In this document: in pieces, positions 1,974 to 38,173 of the stretch
Layout: the number at the start of each line of letters is the position of its first letter
Position numbering within the stretch: the first letter of the stretch is position 1
Origin: Pyrinomonadaceae bacterium
GTDB taxonomy: Bacteria > Acidobacteriota > Blastocatellia > Pyrinomonadales > Pyrinomonadaceae
Direction: 5' to 3'
Length of the DNA stretch: 64,000 nt
Assembly: GCA_036277115.1 (NCBI GenBank)
Contig: DASUNM010000024.1
Span: 496,001-560,000 of the forward strand
The notes under the pieces: generated by a model
Told to the model about the DNA's origin: nothing
What the model saw: only the letters and a program-made list of their open reading frames with translations
Database searches by the model: none
Program-made: the position numbers and the translations under genes

Positions 1974-4754
1974 CTATTCGGCTACTCGTCTGCCGTCAAC
2001 ATCCAGGTAGGCGATCGTGAATCCGTTCAGTTCCTTCAACTTCGGTTCGATTACTTTGCGGTCGCCAACAATCAGAATCGCCATTTTGGACGGGTCGAGA
2101 TACTTGTTCGCTACCCGATTGACGTCCGCCACGGTAACGGCATTAACCTTAGCGATGTAATCGTTGAAGTAACTATCCGGCAGTCCGAACACAACCAGGT
2201 TGGACAACTGATTCGAGATTTGGCCCACAGTTTCAAAAGCACCCGGGTAACGCCGAATAATACTCTGCTTATTGTAATCGAGCTCTTTCTGCGTCACCGG
2301 AATTGAGCCGCGAATGCCATTGAGTTCCTTCATGAACTCCTGGATGGATTCCCGGGTAACAGCGGTCTGAACGTCGGCCGAGGCGGAAAACGGTCCGGCC
2401 CCTCGGCGGAAACTCCACCCGCTGCGCGCGCCGTAGGTGTAACCCTTATCTTCGCGCAGGTTCATGTTTACGCGAGACGAAAACTGTCCGCCCAGAATGG
2501 AGTTCATCACCAACAGAGAGAAGTAATCGGGATTGCTCCGATCCACTCCGATCTGACCGATCGTTACCACCGACTGTGCGGCGCCAGGCCTGTCGACGAT
2601 GTAGATACCAGGTTGCTCAAACCGCGGCGCAGGTGGCACCGAAGTTGCCGTCACCGTGGATGCTTTCCAGGTTTCAAAAGCCTTTTCCAGCTTCGGCATC
2701 AACGTCTTCGCATCGGCTTCGCCAGCCACAATCAAGACTGAGTTGTTGGGCCGATAGTAACTGTCATAAAACTTTTGCAGGTCATCTCTGGTGAGCGCCT
2801 TGAGCGACTCTTCATCGCCCGCCAACGGTCTGCCATAGGGATGAGTCTTCCCGTAGAGCAAAGAACTGTAAGCGATGTTGGCAATTTGGTTCGCATTGTT
2901 CTTGCGCTGCAGAAACTGCACGGCATTCCGGCGACGCTGGACTTCAAACTCGGTTTCCGGGAACGTGGGATTAACCACCACGTCCGAGAAGACTTCCAGA
3001 GCTTTGTCCAGATTCCTGGTCAAAGTAAGCAAGCTCACGTTCGACGAATCCCAATCTGATCCGGTGTTAAGCTGCGCGCCGATTGATTGAAGCTGCTTTG
3101 AAATCTCAGTCACGGAACGCGTCTTGGTTCCGTCATCCAGAAGAGAGGCCGTCATATTAGCGACGCCGGCCTTCGGGTCAGCAGTACCACCGGTCTTAAC
3201 CACCAGGTTCATCGACACAATCGGAAGTTCGTTCTGATGAACCAGCCAGACCTCCAGACCGTTTGAAAGTTTGTTTTTCTCGATTTTCGGCAGCACAAGT
3301 TTCGGATCGGGACCCGGTTTTGGCAATTTCGAAGAATCCGGCTCCTCCTTCTGCTTGGCAGCGGTTGATGTTGGCGTGTTGGCAGAGTTTTGCGCCACAG
3401 ATTGCGCCGCGCCCTGTCTGCGAACGTAACTCATTACGAGCTTCTTGTCGGTCAGGTACGTTTGGGCGACCCGTTGAACATCGGCTGCCGTGACCTTGCG
3501 AAACTCATCCAGATTCTGCTGGAAGTAGTCGGGACGGCCGCGCATGGTGAAATAGTTATTCATCTGGTCGGCCCGTCCGAAAACGGTTTGTAATGCGTAA
3601 ACGGCTTGAGACTCGATCTGATTCAAGGCCCGCTCCATCTCTTCCGCGGTCGGTGGTTCTTTCTTGATTCGTTCAATTTCGGCCAGAATTTCTTTCTCGA
3701 TTTCATCGAGCGATTTTCCCGGACGCGCCGTGGTGGTCACCGAAAAAGATCCCGCGATTTCGCGCGATTGTTGAAAAGCCCCCACTTCCTGGGCCAATTG
3801 TTTGCCATACATCAGATTGCTTTGCAGCCGCGAGTTGCGCCCTGAAGACAGCACCGAGCCGAGCATAGAAAGCGCACTGTCGTCTCCGGCAAAGCGAGGA
3901 ACGGTATGCCAAATCATGTAGAGACGCGGCAGTGGTACGTCGTCTTCCACACTCTTGCGAATCTCAGCGTCGAATTTCGGCGCCGCGGGCTTGGGGCGAA
4001 CCACAGCCGCACCGCGCGGAATAGGACCAAAGTATTTCTCCACCCAGCCGCGCGCCTTCTTCGTGTCAAAGTCTCCGGCAATCACCAGCGAGGCGTTGTT
4101 TGGCACATAGTACTGACGGAAGAAAGCCTTCACGTCCTCCATTGAGGCGGCGGTGAGATCGTCGAGCGAGCCAATCGTGGTCCAATGGTAGGGGTGATCA
4201 GCCGGGTACATGATCGCGGCGATCTTTTCCTGGGCCGTTCCGTAAGGCTGATTCTCATAGCTCTGACGTCTTTCATTCTTCACAACGTCGCGCTGGTTGT
4301 TGAGCTTTTCCATCGTCATGGCGTCGAGCAGGCCACCCATGCGATCGGCTTCCATAAACAACGCCAGCTCGAGAAAGTTGGACGGGAGAATCTCGTAATA
4401 ATTCGTCCGGTCGGCGTTGGTTGATCCGTTAATGTTTGCGCCCGCTTCCTGCAACGGTCTGAAATAATCGTCGTTGTAGTTTTTTGAGCCCTGAAACATC
4501 ATGTGCTCGAACAAATGTGCGAAGCCCGTGCGCCCGCGCACCTCGTTCTTGGAGCCCACGTGATACCAGAGGTCGACCGCTACGATTGGAGTCGACTTAT
4601 CGACGTGCATGATCACGTTCAGCCCATTGGGCAGAGTGAATTGCTCATATTTGACCGGCGGCAGGTTACCGCCACTCTTTGGTTGGGCCGCAGCCAAACC
4701 CGGCAGGACCAGTGAAAGTCCCAGCACAATCGCAAACAATCTCGCTTTTCTCAT
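1974..4754 (-). CDS. Secreted two-domain M16 (pitrilysin family) zinc metallopeptidase
   Basis: Zinc peptidase of 926 residues made of two fused M16 halves, as in processing-peptidase-like periplasmic enzymes. A signal peptide (MRKARLFAIVLGLSLVLPG..AAAQ) precedes the catalytic half, which carries the inverted zinc motif HLFEH (His80, Glu83, His84) within GFAHLFEHMMFQGS. The second half (from about residue 495, after a Thr/Lys/Pro-rich linker) repeats the fold but has ANMTASLLDDG in place of the zinc motif, so it is the non-catalytic clamp half. A longer reading frame begins at 4796, but the ATG at 4754 is preferred: it starts the signal peptide and has AGGAG 9 bases upstream. It follows the aminotransferase gene by about 40 bases, suggesting co-transcription. 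Another M16 gene lies at 52.8-55.6 kb. Confidence 0.95.
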   Translation of the reverse strand: MRKARLFAIVLGLSLVLPGLAAAQPKSGGNLPPVKYEQFTLPNGLNVIMHVDKSTPIVAVDLWYHVGSKNEVRGRTGFAHLFEHMMFQGSKNYNDDYFRPLQEAGANINGSTNADRTNYYEILPSNFLELALFMEADRMGGLLDAMTMEKLNNQRDVVKNERRQSYENQPYGTAQEKIAAIMYPADHPYHWTTIGSLDDLTAASMEDVKAFFRQYYVPNNASLVIAGDFDTKKARGWVEKYFGPIPRGAAVVRPKPAAPKFDAEIRKSVEDDVPLPRLYMIWHTVPRFAGDDSALSMLGSVLSSGRNSRLQSNLMYGKQLAQEVGAFQQSREIAGSFSVTTTARPGKSLDEIEKEILAEIERIKKEPPTAEEMERALNQIESQAVYALQTVFGRADQMNNYFTMRGRPDYFQQNLDEFRKVTAADVQRVAQTYLTDKKLVMSYVRRQGAAQSVAQNSANTPTSTAAKQKEEPDSSKLPKPGPDPKLVLPKIEKNKLSNGLEVWLVHQNELPIVSMNLVVKTGGTADPKAGVANMTASLLDDGTKTRSVTEISKQLQSIGAQLNTGSDWDSSNVSLLTLTRNLDKALEVFSDVVVNPTFPETEFEVQRRRNAVQFLQRKNNANQIANIAYSSLLYGKTHPYGRPLAGDEESLKALTRDDLQKFYDSYYRPNNSVLIVAGEADAKTLMPKLEKAFETWKASTVTATSVPPAPRFEQPGIYIVDRPGAAQSVVTIGQIGVDRSNPDYFSLLVMNSILGGQFSSRVNMNLREDKGYTYGARSGWSFRRGAGPFSASADVQTAVTRESIQEFMKELNGIRGSIPVTQKELDYNKQSIIRRYPGAFETVGQISNQLSNLVVFGLPDSYFNDYIAKVNAVTVADVNRVANKYLDPSKMAILIVGDRKVIEPKLKELNGFTIAYLDVDGRRVAE

Positions 4755-4795
4755 TTTCTCATTCTCCTTTACAAGCCAGCAGGTCTTACCGCGCA

Positions 4796-6100
4796 CTAGG
4801 CAGCGGCAAAAGCTCCATCCATTGCCTCGATTAATTCATCGACATGATCTTTCGTCGAGTTGAGCATCATGCCGGTGCGAATTACATTCCCGTAAAGTCC
4901 GCCTTTGCCGACCAGCACGCGACGTTTCTTAGTTTCCTCGAAAACGCGCGCGACAGATTGCGGATCGGGCTCCTTGGTTTCTCGATCTTTGACCAGTTCC
5001 ACGGCCTGCATCAGCCCCATGCCGCGCACGTCGCCGATCGTCCGGTATTTTTCCTTTAAGCCTTCAAGCTTTTCGCGGAAGTAGCCGCCGACCACCGCGG
5101 AATTCTTCTTCAGATCGTCGTCTTCGATCACCTTGATTACAGCGAGCGCCGCTGCGGACGAAACTGGATTGCCGCCGAAGGTTGAGAACGTCAGACCGGG
5201 AAACTTATCGGCCACTTCCGGTGTCGCGACCGTGATTCCGATCGGCGTTCCATTGCCGAGACCTTTCGCGGACGTGATGATGTCCGGCTCAACATTCCAG
5301 TTTTCAATGCCGAACCATTTGTCGCCGGTGCGTCCCCAGGCCGTTTGCACCTCGTCAGCAATGAAGAGCCCGCCATGCTTGCGCGTGATTTCAACCGCGC
5401 GTTCAAAGTAGCCCGGCGGCGGCACGATGAACCCGCCGACTCCGAGAATCGGCTCAGCCATGAAAGCGGCAATCTCGCCGGTCGTCGTCGTCATGATTAG
5501 TTCTTCAATGTCATTCGCGCAGGCGAGTCCGCATTCCGGATAGGTAAGCTTGAACGGGCAGCGATAACAATACGGCGCGCGCGCGTGCACAAAACCGCTG
5601 ACCTGCGGTGGCAGAGGTCGCCAGGTCGAGTGTCCCATCGCAGATAGTGAAGTTGCCGACCTGCCACTGTAAGCGTGACGCAGCACAACGATCTCGTGAC
5701 GGCCGGTCGCGAGCTTCGCGGCATGCACCGCCGTGTCGTCGGCTTCGGTGCCACTGTTAGTGAAAAAAGATTTCTTCAAGCGGCCCGGCGTAATCTGCGC
5801 AAGCTTCTCAGCCAAATCCGACTGCGGCTGGTTGCAGTAAAGCGTTGACGTGTGCGAGATGGTGTTGACTTGATTGATGATGGCTTCGTTCACACGCGGA
5901 TTTGCGTGACCGACGCTGACCGTGAGCACCCCGCCAAAACAGTCCAGGTACTTCTCGCCCTGGTCGTCCCAAACGTGAGCGCCTTCGCCTTTCACCAGCG
6001 CCAGCGGCTCTTCGTAATAAGTCGCGACCGCCGGAAAGAGAAACTCTTTATGTTTGCGGACGGGGTCAGACTGCGACGGTTTTGGTTCTGGAGTGCTCAT
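4796..6100 (-). CDS. Class III PLP-dependent aminotransferase (AGXT2/GABA-aminotransferase-like)
   Basis: Cytosolic fold-type I aminotransferase of 434 residues, the normal family length. Seen: substrate/PLP motifs FTNSGTEADDTAVH, then FIADEVQTAWGRTG with the PLP-binding Asp, and the Schiff-base lysine in SAKGLGNG (Lys at about 279). A cysteine-containing insert YCYRCPF..YPECGLAC at about residue 180 is typical of the subgroup annotated as aspartate aminotransferase family or alanine-glyoxylate aminotransferase 2-like. The amino donor and acceptor cannot be fixed from sequence: alanine-glyoxylate, 4-aminobutyrate and beta-alanine activities all occur in this family. It precedes the M16 peptidase gene on the same strand. 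ATG at 6100 is the natural start. Confidence 0.9.
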   Translation of the reverse strand: MSTPEPKPSQSDPVRKHKEFLFPAVATYYEEPLALVKGEGAHVWDDQGEKYLDCFGGVLTVSVGHANPRVNEAIINQVNTISHTSTLYCNQPQSDLAEKLAQITPGRLKKSFFTNSGTEADDTAVHAAKLATGRHEIVVLRHAYSGRSATSLSAMGHSTWRPLPPQVSGFVHARAPYCYRCPFKLTYPECGLACANDIEELIMTTTTGEIAAFMAEPILGVGGFIVPPPGYFERAVEITRKHGGLFIADEVQTAWGRTGDKWFGIENWNVEPDIITSAKGLGNGTPIGITVATPEVADKFPGLTFSTFGGNPVSSAAALAVIKVIEDDDLKKNSAVVGGYFREKLEGLKEKYRTIGDVRGMGLMQAVELVKDRETKEPDPQSVARVFEETKKRRVLVGKGGLYGNVIRTGMMLNSTKDHVDELIEAMDGAFAAA

Positions 6101-36244: not shown

Positions 36245-36310
36245 TTCTTCAAATCGAAAATCATCATGAGTTTCAATACTATTCTTTGACTTTAGCGTTT
36301 GATCCGTCTA

Positions 36311-36590
36311 AATACCTGCAGCCCGCCATTCCTTATACAGCATGAACCCAAAGACGACAGTTCAGATTCGATCCTGGCTCCTTCCCTGGCTGCCAAGTCG
36401 GAAGCTGTCTCAGATGACTTGCTGCGCGCAATCATCGACGAACACGCGGAGCCAATCATCAAGAAAATACTGAGAAGTAAAGGTCGCCTTATGCCATCGA
36501 TCAACGCATTGGAGAGGCGATTGATTCTGATTCCAAACCTGAGCTGTTCGTTTCCGGCATATTGGAAAATCTTCAGGCGTCAGATTTAAC
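36311..36590 (+). pseudogene. Possible decayed gene fragment upstream of the graspetide precursor
   Basis: The 444-base gap before the precursor gene contains a coding-like stretch HEPKDDSSDSILAPSL..SDDLLRAIIDEHAEPIIKKILRSK (about 36340-36480). Shortly after this the reading frame shifts +1: SPYAIDQRIGEAIDSDSKPE and ELFVSGILENLQASD (about 36485-36590) are then read in the neighbouring frame. The first part looks like the N-terminus of an acidobacterial sigma-like hypothetical family, recalled from memory. No intact ORF spans it, so it may be a frameshifted remnant. Assigned with low confidence; it may simply be non-coding. Confidence 0.3.
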
Positions 36591-36688
36591 AAACTCGCGA
36601 GTAACCCCGAGCGCTTTCGACGCATCACAGGTGTCGTCTAGAGTTCGTACTCGCAATGCACACTTCAACCCCTTAAGGAGATCACTCA

Positions 36689-36865
36689 ATGCCAGATAAG
36701 ACAGAAGTACGCATCCCCGAAGACTCCGAGCAGAGTCTGCCGTTCTTCGCGCGCTTTCTCGAAGCCCAAGCCACCCCCGAGGTTAGCAAAATGACGCTCA
36801 AGTACCCGTCCGACAGGGATGAGATCGACCAACGACTTGAATTGACGTCAGGCAACAACGAATAA
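36689..36865 (+). CDS. Graspetide precursor peptide (microviridin/marinostatin-like)
   Basis: A 58-residue ribosomal peptide precursor. Leader: PFFARFLE at residues 18-25, the helix that binds and activates the ATP-grasp ligase in microviridin systems. Core: TLKYPSDRDE at 36-45, matching microviridin TxKYPSD and closest to marinostatin (TMRYPSDSDE). By analogy with marinostatin (Thr3-Asp9, Ser8-Asp11), esters are predicted between Thr36-Asp42 and Ser41-Asp44. The product would be bicyclic with Leu37 as P1, so a serine-protease inhibitor of elastase/chymotrypsin/subtilisin type is likely. The ATG follows AAGGAG (36675-36680) by 8 bases. Odd: a 13-residue tail (46-58, IDQRLELTSGNNE) extends past the core. 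A cognate ligase gene lies 176 bases downstream. It was too short for simple ORF lists, so it is easily missed. Confidence 0.9.
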   Translation: MPDKTEVRIPEDSEQSLPFFARFLEAQATPEVSKMTLKYPSDRDEIDQRLELTSGNNE

Positions 36866-36897
36866 ATAAAAAGTCCGTTCCAAACGGTCGCCGAAAA

Positions 36898-36929
36898 GCC
36901 GGTCGTGTCGAATCTCGCGCACGGCCGGC
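36898..36929. promoter_or_regulatory. Inverted repeat between graspetide precursor and ligase genes
   Basis: GCCGGTCGTG and CACGGCCGGC arms (one G-T mismatch) with a 12-base loop form a GC-rich hairpin in the 176-base gap. It lacks a T-run, so it is not a classic terminator. It could attenuate read-through or protect the short precursor mRNA from decay, giving more precursor than ligase; this is inference. Confidence 0.5.
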
Positions 36930-37041
36930 GCCCTTAACAGAAGGATCCGGCCCTCGTTCGAAGCATTCGCGGCTAGCATTCCATCGTCGCACGAGGCTCG
37001 TCAGACGGGGGCCGCACCTTCTAACTACTCACCTCCGACGC

Positions 37042-38034
37042 ATGAATCCAACAGCGCGCGACGCCGTTCTCATGTTGACGCACGGCGGCGATTTCTACAC
37101 CATCGATCTCGTCTCGCAGGCTCTTGCGCGCAGGGGCGCCCGCCCCATTCGCTTCAACACAGATTTCTTCCCGTCGTCCGTCATGCTTTCGGCTCGCGCG
37201 GGCGATGAACGCGCCGCGTACCTTTTCACGGACGTGGGCGAGCAGATTTCCACCACGGAGGTGCGCGCCGTGTGGGCCCGTAAGCTTTGGTCGCCGCGTA
37301 TGGCCGACGACCTCGATGAGCGTTATCGCGAAATGTGCATACGGGAGTCCACCGCCGCGCTTGAAGGCTTTCTCGACGCGCTCCACGATGTGCGCTGGGT
37401 CAACGACCTCCAGCGCGAGGGCGCCGCCGAGAACAAGCAACGACAGCTCCGACTCGCCGCGCGCGCTGGCCTGCGCGTCCCGCGTACTCTCGTCACCAAC
37501 GACCCCGTCGCGGCTCGACAGTTTTTCGCAGAGACTGAAGGCCAAACCGTGGCGAAGCTCCTCCGCCCGCTCACCGTCAGCATGGACGCTGTCGAGGCCT
37601 TCGTTTACACCAGCCGCCTCCGCGAAGAAGATCTGGCTTCGGCGGAGTCACTTCGGCATAGCCCGATGGTCTTTCAAGAGTTGATTCCGAAAGCGCGCGA
37701 ATTGCGCGTCGCGTGGGTTGCGGGCGAAGCCTTCGTAGGCGCGCTCGACGCGAGTGGTACGTCGCGCGGGCATACCGACTGGCGGCGCGCCGCCGCCGGC
37801 GAATGTCGATGGGAGACGGCCCAGCTTCCCGCCGAGGTCTTAAGCGGCCTGCTGGCATTGATGTCGGAACTCGGTCTCGTCTTCGGGGCCGTTGATCTCA
37901 TCTGTACTCCGTCGGGCGAGCACGTTTTCCTCGAAGTTAACCCCTCTGGCGAATGGGGTATGCTCGAACGAGACCTCGGCCTTCCTATCTCGGAAGCCAT
38001 CGCCGAAGCGCTCCTCGAAACCCGTAAGCAGTAA
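37042..38034 (+). CDS. MdnC/MvdD-like ATP-grasp peptide ligase (graspetide maturase)
   Basis: A 330-residue ATP-grasp ligase predicted to form side-chain ester crosslinks in the precursor encoded just upstream. The N-terminal MLTHGGDFYTIDLVSQALARRGARPIRFNTDFFP matches the MvdD/MdnC pre-ATP-grasp domain (HxxD..FDTDxFP type). Central KLLRPL, VFQELIPKARELRVAWVAGEAFVGALD and C-terminal GAVDLIC..HVFLEVNPSGEWGMLERDLGLPI are the ATP-grasp core, with the metal-binding Asp, Glu and Asn (DLIC, EVNPSGEW). Length fits the family (about 325). Only one ligase is present; microviridin systems use a second to make the Lys-Glu amide, so bicyclic ester-only product is favoured. GC-rich codon use, as in much of the window. 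ATG 37042 has no strong ribosome-binding site. Confidence 0.92.
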   Translation: MNPTARDAVLMLTHGGDFYTIDLVSQALARRGARPIRFNTDFFPSSVMLSARAGDERAAYLFTDVGEQISTTEVRAVWARKLWSPRMADDLDERYREMCIRESTAALEGFLDALHDVRWVNDLQREGAAENKQRQLRLAARAGLRVPRTLVTNDPVAARQFFAETEGQTVAKLLRPLTVSMDAVEAFVYTSRLREEDLASAESLRHSPMVFQELIPKARELRVAWVAGEAFVGALDASGTSRGHTDWRRAAAGECRWETAQLPAEVLSGLLALMSELGLVFGAVDLICTPSGEHVFLEVNPSGEWGMLERDLGLPISEAIAEALLETRKQ

Positions 38035-38173
38035 GCAATAGGCCGGAGGCAGAAGACCCGAGGTCCAACCTTCAATTTACTTTTGAAGAAAAGCGACAAC
38101 AGCTTTGCGATGACGTTAGGTGTCTGCCTTTCAGTTGCCAGTCATACCGCGGCTGTGCTTCACTGCGTCGTCG

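Follow-up and report, generated by a model that had tools for sequence, protein, structure and literature searches.

A microviridin precursor and MdnB-type ligase gene pair without mdnC in a Pyrinomonadaceae genome

Introduction

Microviridins are encoded by mdnA-mdnB-mdnC clusters (mvdE-mvdC-mvdD), in whose biosynthesis MvdD/MdnC forms two lactones and MvdC/MdnB forms the lactam (PMC7823629, PMC13039773). MdnB is inactive on the linear or monocyclic precursor and requires both lactones first (PMC7823629). Marinostatin-type loci are devoid of MdnB (PMC7823629). Mining of Atacama soil MAGs mentions microviridins, and the Pyrinomonadaceae are rich in RiPP clusters in that data set (PMC11520301). 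Here we describe a locus found in a 64,000-nucleotide stretch (the window) of a Pyrinomonadaceae genome of 4.85 Mb (30 contigs, completeness 100). What is new, as judged from its sequence, is an unusual reduced layout, mdnA-mdnB without mdnC, within the known microviridin family.

Results

The locus comprises the following features, of which several are shared with two related genomes (G067 and G088).

36622..36688, +, upstream stretch that aligns with the G067 and G088 orthologous loci (blastn against L040 and L137)
36675..36680, +, ribosome-binding site AAGGAG of the precursor gene (direct sequence reading)
36689..36865, +, mdnA-type microviridin precursor, 58 aa (NF033738, PF12559; same-length orthologues in G067 and G088)
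36740..36763, +, leader recognition motif PFFARFLE, residues 18-25 (sequence, precursor alignment)
36794..36823, +, core TLKYPSDRDE, residues 36-45 (sequence; linkages inferred)
36824..36862, +, C-terminal tail IDQRLELTSGNNE, 13 residues (translations of the window, G067 and G088)
37042..38034, +, MdnB/MvdC-type ATP-grasp ligase (lactam-forming paralogue), 330 aa (TIGR04185, tree, diagnostic residues)
38035..38173, +, site of mdnC in relatives, here without mdnC or a remnant (tblastn, DNA alignment)

The precursor

The 58-codon gene at 36689-36865 (+) translates as MPDKTEVRIPEDSEQSLPFFARFLEAQATPEVSKMTLKYPSDRDEIDQRLELTSGNNE. It scores 35.1 bits against NF033738 microvirid_RiPP of NCBIfam (cut-off 26, E 1.7e-8) and 30.2 bits against PF12559 Inhibitor_I10 of Pfam (cut-off 21), which is far beyond chance. 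PFFAR, L24 and E25 are without variation across ten aligned precursors, and the tail is kept in the G067 and G088 orthologues as xDQRLxxTSxxN[E/D]. The core follows the pattern TxKxPSDx[DE][DE] and holds all of the ring residues (Thr, Ser, Lys and their acidic partners), including Lys38 and Glu45 of the amide. The stretch 36622..36688 is the probable promoter region of this gene. The original prediction had recognized a microviridin precursor signature in the 58-residue length, the PFFARFLE leader and the TLKYPSDRDE core, and both family models bear it out. Precursor models, leader and core all fit a graspetide of the microviridin group, as which the peptide is classified from its sequence, and this class stands upon comparison with related genomes, where leader motif and core are conserved. 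By microviridin connectivity (PMC7823629), Thr36-Asp42 and Ser41-Asp44 esters and a Lys38-Glu45 amide are predicted, and a serine-protease inhibitor with Leu at P1 is expected from the family.

The adjacent ligase

The ligase gene begins 176 bases after the end of the precursor gene. Its product passes the cut-off of the MvdC equivalog model TIGR04185 (434 bits, cut-off 425) and falls below that of the MvdD model TIGR04184 (269 bits, cut-off 475). The best solved relatives, about 50% identical in sequence, are AMdnB 7m4s (348 bits) and 5ig8 (341 bits), the latter of which we take to be MdnB, in agreement with its placement in the tree. Structure 5ig9, named as MdnC (PMC7823629), reaches 187 bits. 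In a phylogeny of 56 ATP-grasp proteins, a branch supported at 100/99 sets apart the MdnB group, which includes the window ligase; CdnC is placed on the MdnC side, and the window and G067 ligases are sisters (99/93). Of 15 positions that distinguish MdnB from MdnC, 13 carry the MdnB residue in the window ligase and none the MdnC residue, the positions around 305-307 being favoured by the search pattern that gathered the loci; none of 81 near-invariant MdnB positions is broken. By these sequence criteria, the window ligase gene is intact and encodes the lactam-forming MdnB/MvdC paralogue. Thus, the original prediction of an MdnC/MvdD-like ligase was correct as to an ATP-grasp graspetide ligase, but the MdnC/MvdD paralogue is ruled out by model cut-offs, tree and diagnostic residues.

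Absence of mdnC and surroundings of the locus

A tblastn search of the window with MdnC matched only mdnB, the next match having an E of 0.35, and neither mdnC nor a remnant of it was found; the locus thus has no MdnC/MvdD ester ligase. DNA similarity to G067 (blastn) begins at 36622, some 67 bases ahead of mdnA, extends over two blocks and ends with mdnB, at 38018. An assembly gap is an unlikely cause of the missing gene, as the contig runs unbroken through the window to either side of the locus, with a genome completeness of 100%. The neighbours encode two PhzF-like proteins, a RidA/YjgF-like protein, an alpha/beta hydrolase, an acyl-CoA dehydrogenase, an APH-type phosphotransferase and, on the opposite strand, a 262-aa protein with no family match. 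Between this divergent gene and the precursor lies a 96-codon open frame (36299-36589, +), also with no family match, which may be a gene remnant. No C39-peptidase transporter or GNAT acetyltransferase is encoded among the neighbours, and no peptidase near mdnA-mdnB. For an empty-site comparison within the genus, six congeners were searched for the flanking acyl-CoA dehydrogenase, and no close homologue was found (best 42%).

A complete cluster elsewhere in the genome

Exactly three proteins of the ligase domain family are present in the genome: the window ligase and a pair encoded side by side on contig C23. The latter belong to a complete mdnA-mdnB-mdnC cluster (G000:C23:947747-950190; L036 5715-8185), in the order precursor, MdnB, MdnC. 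Its precursor has 128 aa, the leader PFFARYLEGQ and two cores, TMKAPSDKDE and TLKYPSDRDE, of which the second is identical to the window core. The first is odd in having Ala in place of the usual Tyr. The C23 MdnB scores 434 bits against TIGR04185, and the C23 MdnC (947747-948700), the sole MdnC of the genome, scores 486 bits against TIGR04184, above the cut-off, and retains the two acidic residues that bind the leader in MdnC (Glu191 and Asp192 in 5ig9). With its two-core precursor, MdnB and MdnC, this is a complete canonical microviridin cluster. The earlier statement that no second ligase is nearby thus holds for the window, but the genome has a second ligase pair.

Relatives of the pair

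The nearest relative, G067, is of the same family and has mdnA-mdnB-mdnC, with a 58-aa precursor and a ligase that are 71% and 77% identical, respectively, to those of the window. G007 and G057 also have mdnB beside mdnC, both loci being cut by contig ends. An orthologous precursor (72% identical to that of the window) also occurs in G088, where it is orphaned, no true mdnB or mdnC match being found in that genome. No frameshift interrupts the window pair. Pairwise dN/dS against the closest relatives is 0.17-0.19 for mdnB and 0.21-0.27 for mdnA, values that mostly reflect history before any loss of mdnC, and both genes look constrained. The window branch, with a dN of 0.05-0.07 vs 0.07-0.09 for the full-cluster relative, shows no acceleration. 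The pair is most likely the remainder of an mdnA-mdnB-mdnC cluster after loss of mdnC. This is the simplest history because G067 has the full cluster, similarity does not extend beyond mdnB, and no trace of mdnC is left.

The contig with the orphan precursor of G088 (C605) also carries an astacin-type metalloprotease gene (PF01400; L137 2743-4137) ending in about ten TLKF[RS]DDP-like repeats. Directly after it lies an MvdD-like ATP-grasp gene (4163-5110; TIGR04187 243 bits, below the cut-off). From its sequence, the astacin gene appears to be a fusion of a protease with a multi-core precursor of the graspetide type.

Frequency of the layout

We surveyed the 80 MdnB-bearing loci most similar to that of the window from 84,980 species genomes. 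An MdnC-type gene is present at 78 of these best 80 loci, at L057 6.8 kb away. L106 ends at a contig edge, and L078 of Nostoc sp. FACHB-152 is without an MdnC-type gene over 4 kb downstream. The lone mdnA-mdnB pair is thus rare (1 of the 79 informative loci among the best 80), and the Nostoc genome has a second, full cluster at L070. That the same layout occurs in the unrelated Nostoc suggests that it arose more than once. Of 294 related Acidobacteriota genomes searched, a microviridin precursor occurs in ten and a strong MvdD in eight; the family is thus scattered within the phylum, yet established there. Two other Acidobacteriota loci (G256:C42:271138-275258 and G124:C159:63362-67855) carry two or three lower-scoring MvdC/MvdD-like ATP-grasp genes and probably belong to other graspetide groups.

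Discussion

As published MdnB requires both lactones, a lone mdnA-mdnB pair is by present knowledge not self-sufficient, and either maturation by the C23 MdnC in trans is probable or the locus is decaying. We favour, with a probability of roughly 0.6, a leftover pair without mdnC whose peptide is matured in trans by the C23 MdnC to a tricyclic microviridin. In the first step, the C23 MdnC would form the esters Thr36-Asp42 and Ser41-Asp44; it could act on the window core because its own precursor holds an identical one. The window MdnB or the C23 MdnB would then close Lys38-Glu45, as the known order of reactions suggests, and host peptidases, none encoded at the locus, would remove the leader and possibly the tail. 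The inferred three-ring product, with two esters and one amide, would have lost three waters, would carry Leu at P1 and, judging from the family, might target an elastase-, chymotrypsin- or subtilisin-like serine protease. The acidic residue pair retained in the C23 MdnC, the constraint on both window genes and the parallel Nostoc pair with a full cluster in the same genome support this reading. Against in-trans maturation speaks that the C23 MdnC shares only 63% identity with the MdnC of G067, which is the closest proxy for the cognate enzyme presumed lost. More tentatively, the pair could be a satellite reliant on the MdnC of the other cluster, such that one ester ligase serves two distant loci, each with its own lactam ligase.

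The main rival to in-trans maturation is decay, which we consider rather unlikely: the pair would have yielded no product since mdnC was lost, and its genes would be intact only through recency. The absence nearby of mdnC, transporter, acetyltransferase and peptidase speaks for such a remnant, as do the reported inactivity of MdnB on linear and monocyclic precursors (PMC7823629) and the orphan precursor of G088. As the latter stands without mdnB and mdnC, orphaned precursors could simply decay slowly, and recent decay is compatible with low dN/dS because the pairwise values cover mostly time before the loss. Nevertheless, the pair shows no frameshift and no broken near-invariant MdnB position, and its branch has not evolved faster than that of the relative with the full cluster.

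It is improbable that the window MdnB stands alone, having taken on ester formation or forming the amide on an unesterified precursor, to give a new ring pattern. One precursor and one ligase would make the pair complete, and single-ligase graspetides exist, though with other ligase types (plesiocin, thuringinin; PMC8939145), but 0 of 81 near-invariant positions are altered, no MdnC-specific residue has been gained, and published MdnB requires a bis-lactone substrate (PMC7823629). Least probable is the marinostatin-like bicyclic peptide of the original prediction, with an MdnC-type ester ligase, two esters and no Lys-Glu amide. A single ligase beside a single-core precursor, and a core ending in DE as in marinostatin, would suit it, and the core had been thought nearer to that of marinostatin. 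That proximity is not confirmed: Lys is at position 3 in all 178 cores of the 80 MdnB loci, and 46 of these cores end in DE. A two-ester peptide without an amide does not follow, because the ligase is MdnB, not MdnC, by cut-off, tree and diagnostic residues; both amide residues, Lys38 and Glu45, are retained, the ester ligase lies elsewhere in the genome, and marinostatin-type loci are without MdnB (PMC7823629).

For in-trans maturation, the expected chemistry is corrected: with an amide ligase at the locus, the mass shift would be -54 Da, not -36 Da, if the esters are supplied in trans. The genome offers a natural test of microviridin ligase sharing between clusters within one cell. It also calls for caution in genome mining, as a precursor with a lone ATP-grasp gene next to it is not necessarily a self-sufficient system.

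Comparison with known systems

The locus shares with microviridin clusters (mdnA-mdnB-mdnC; mvdE-mvdC-mvdD) the PFFARFL leader, a T-x-K-Y-P-S-D-x-[DE]-[DE] core, an MdnB/MvdC ligase above the equivalog cut-off and the order mdnA then mdnB. It differs in the absence of mdnC, acetyltransferase and transporter and in its conserved 13-residue tail. Its closest counterpart, the Acidobacteriota MAG8 cluster of G067 (L040, L046; JAIVJV010000009.1), has the orthologous 58-aa precursor with an identical core, the 77% identical ligase and alignable DNA that starts some 67 bases ahead of mdnA and ends with mdnB, but its mdnC lies directly 3' of mdnB and its other flanking genes differ. The Nostoc sp. FACHB-152 locus (L078, contig78) has the same mdnA-mdnB layout with a complete cluster elsewhere in the genome; it is cyanobacterial, its core is TFKYPSDLED and its ligase is 53% identical to that of the window. 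Marinostatin resembles the window locus in the PFFARFL leader, a related core and a single ligase gene. It is characterized by an ester ligase, no MdnB, no Lys at the amide position and a peptide without the amide; the window locus, with MdnB present, MdnC absent and Lys kept, is its mirror image, the reverse of the MdnB loss that has been linked to marinostatin (PMC7823629).
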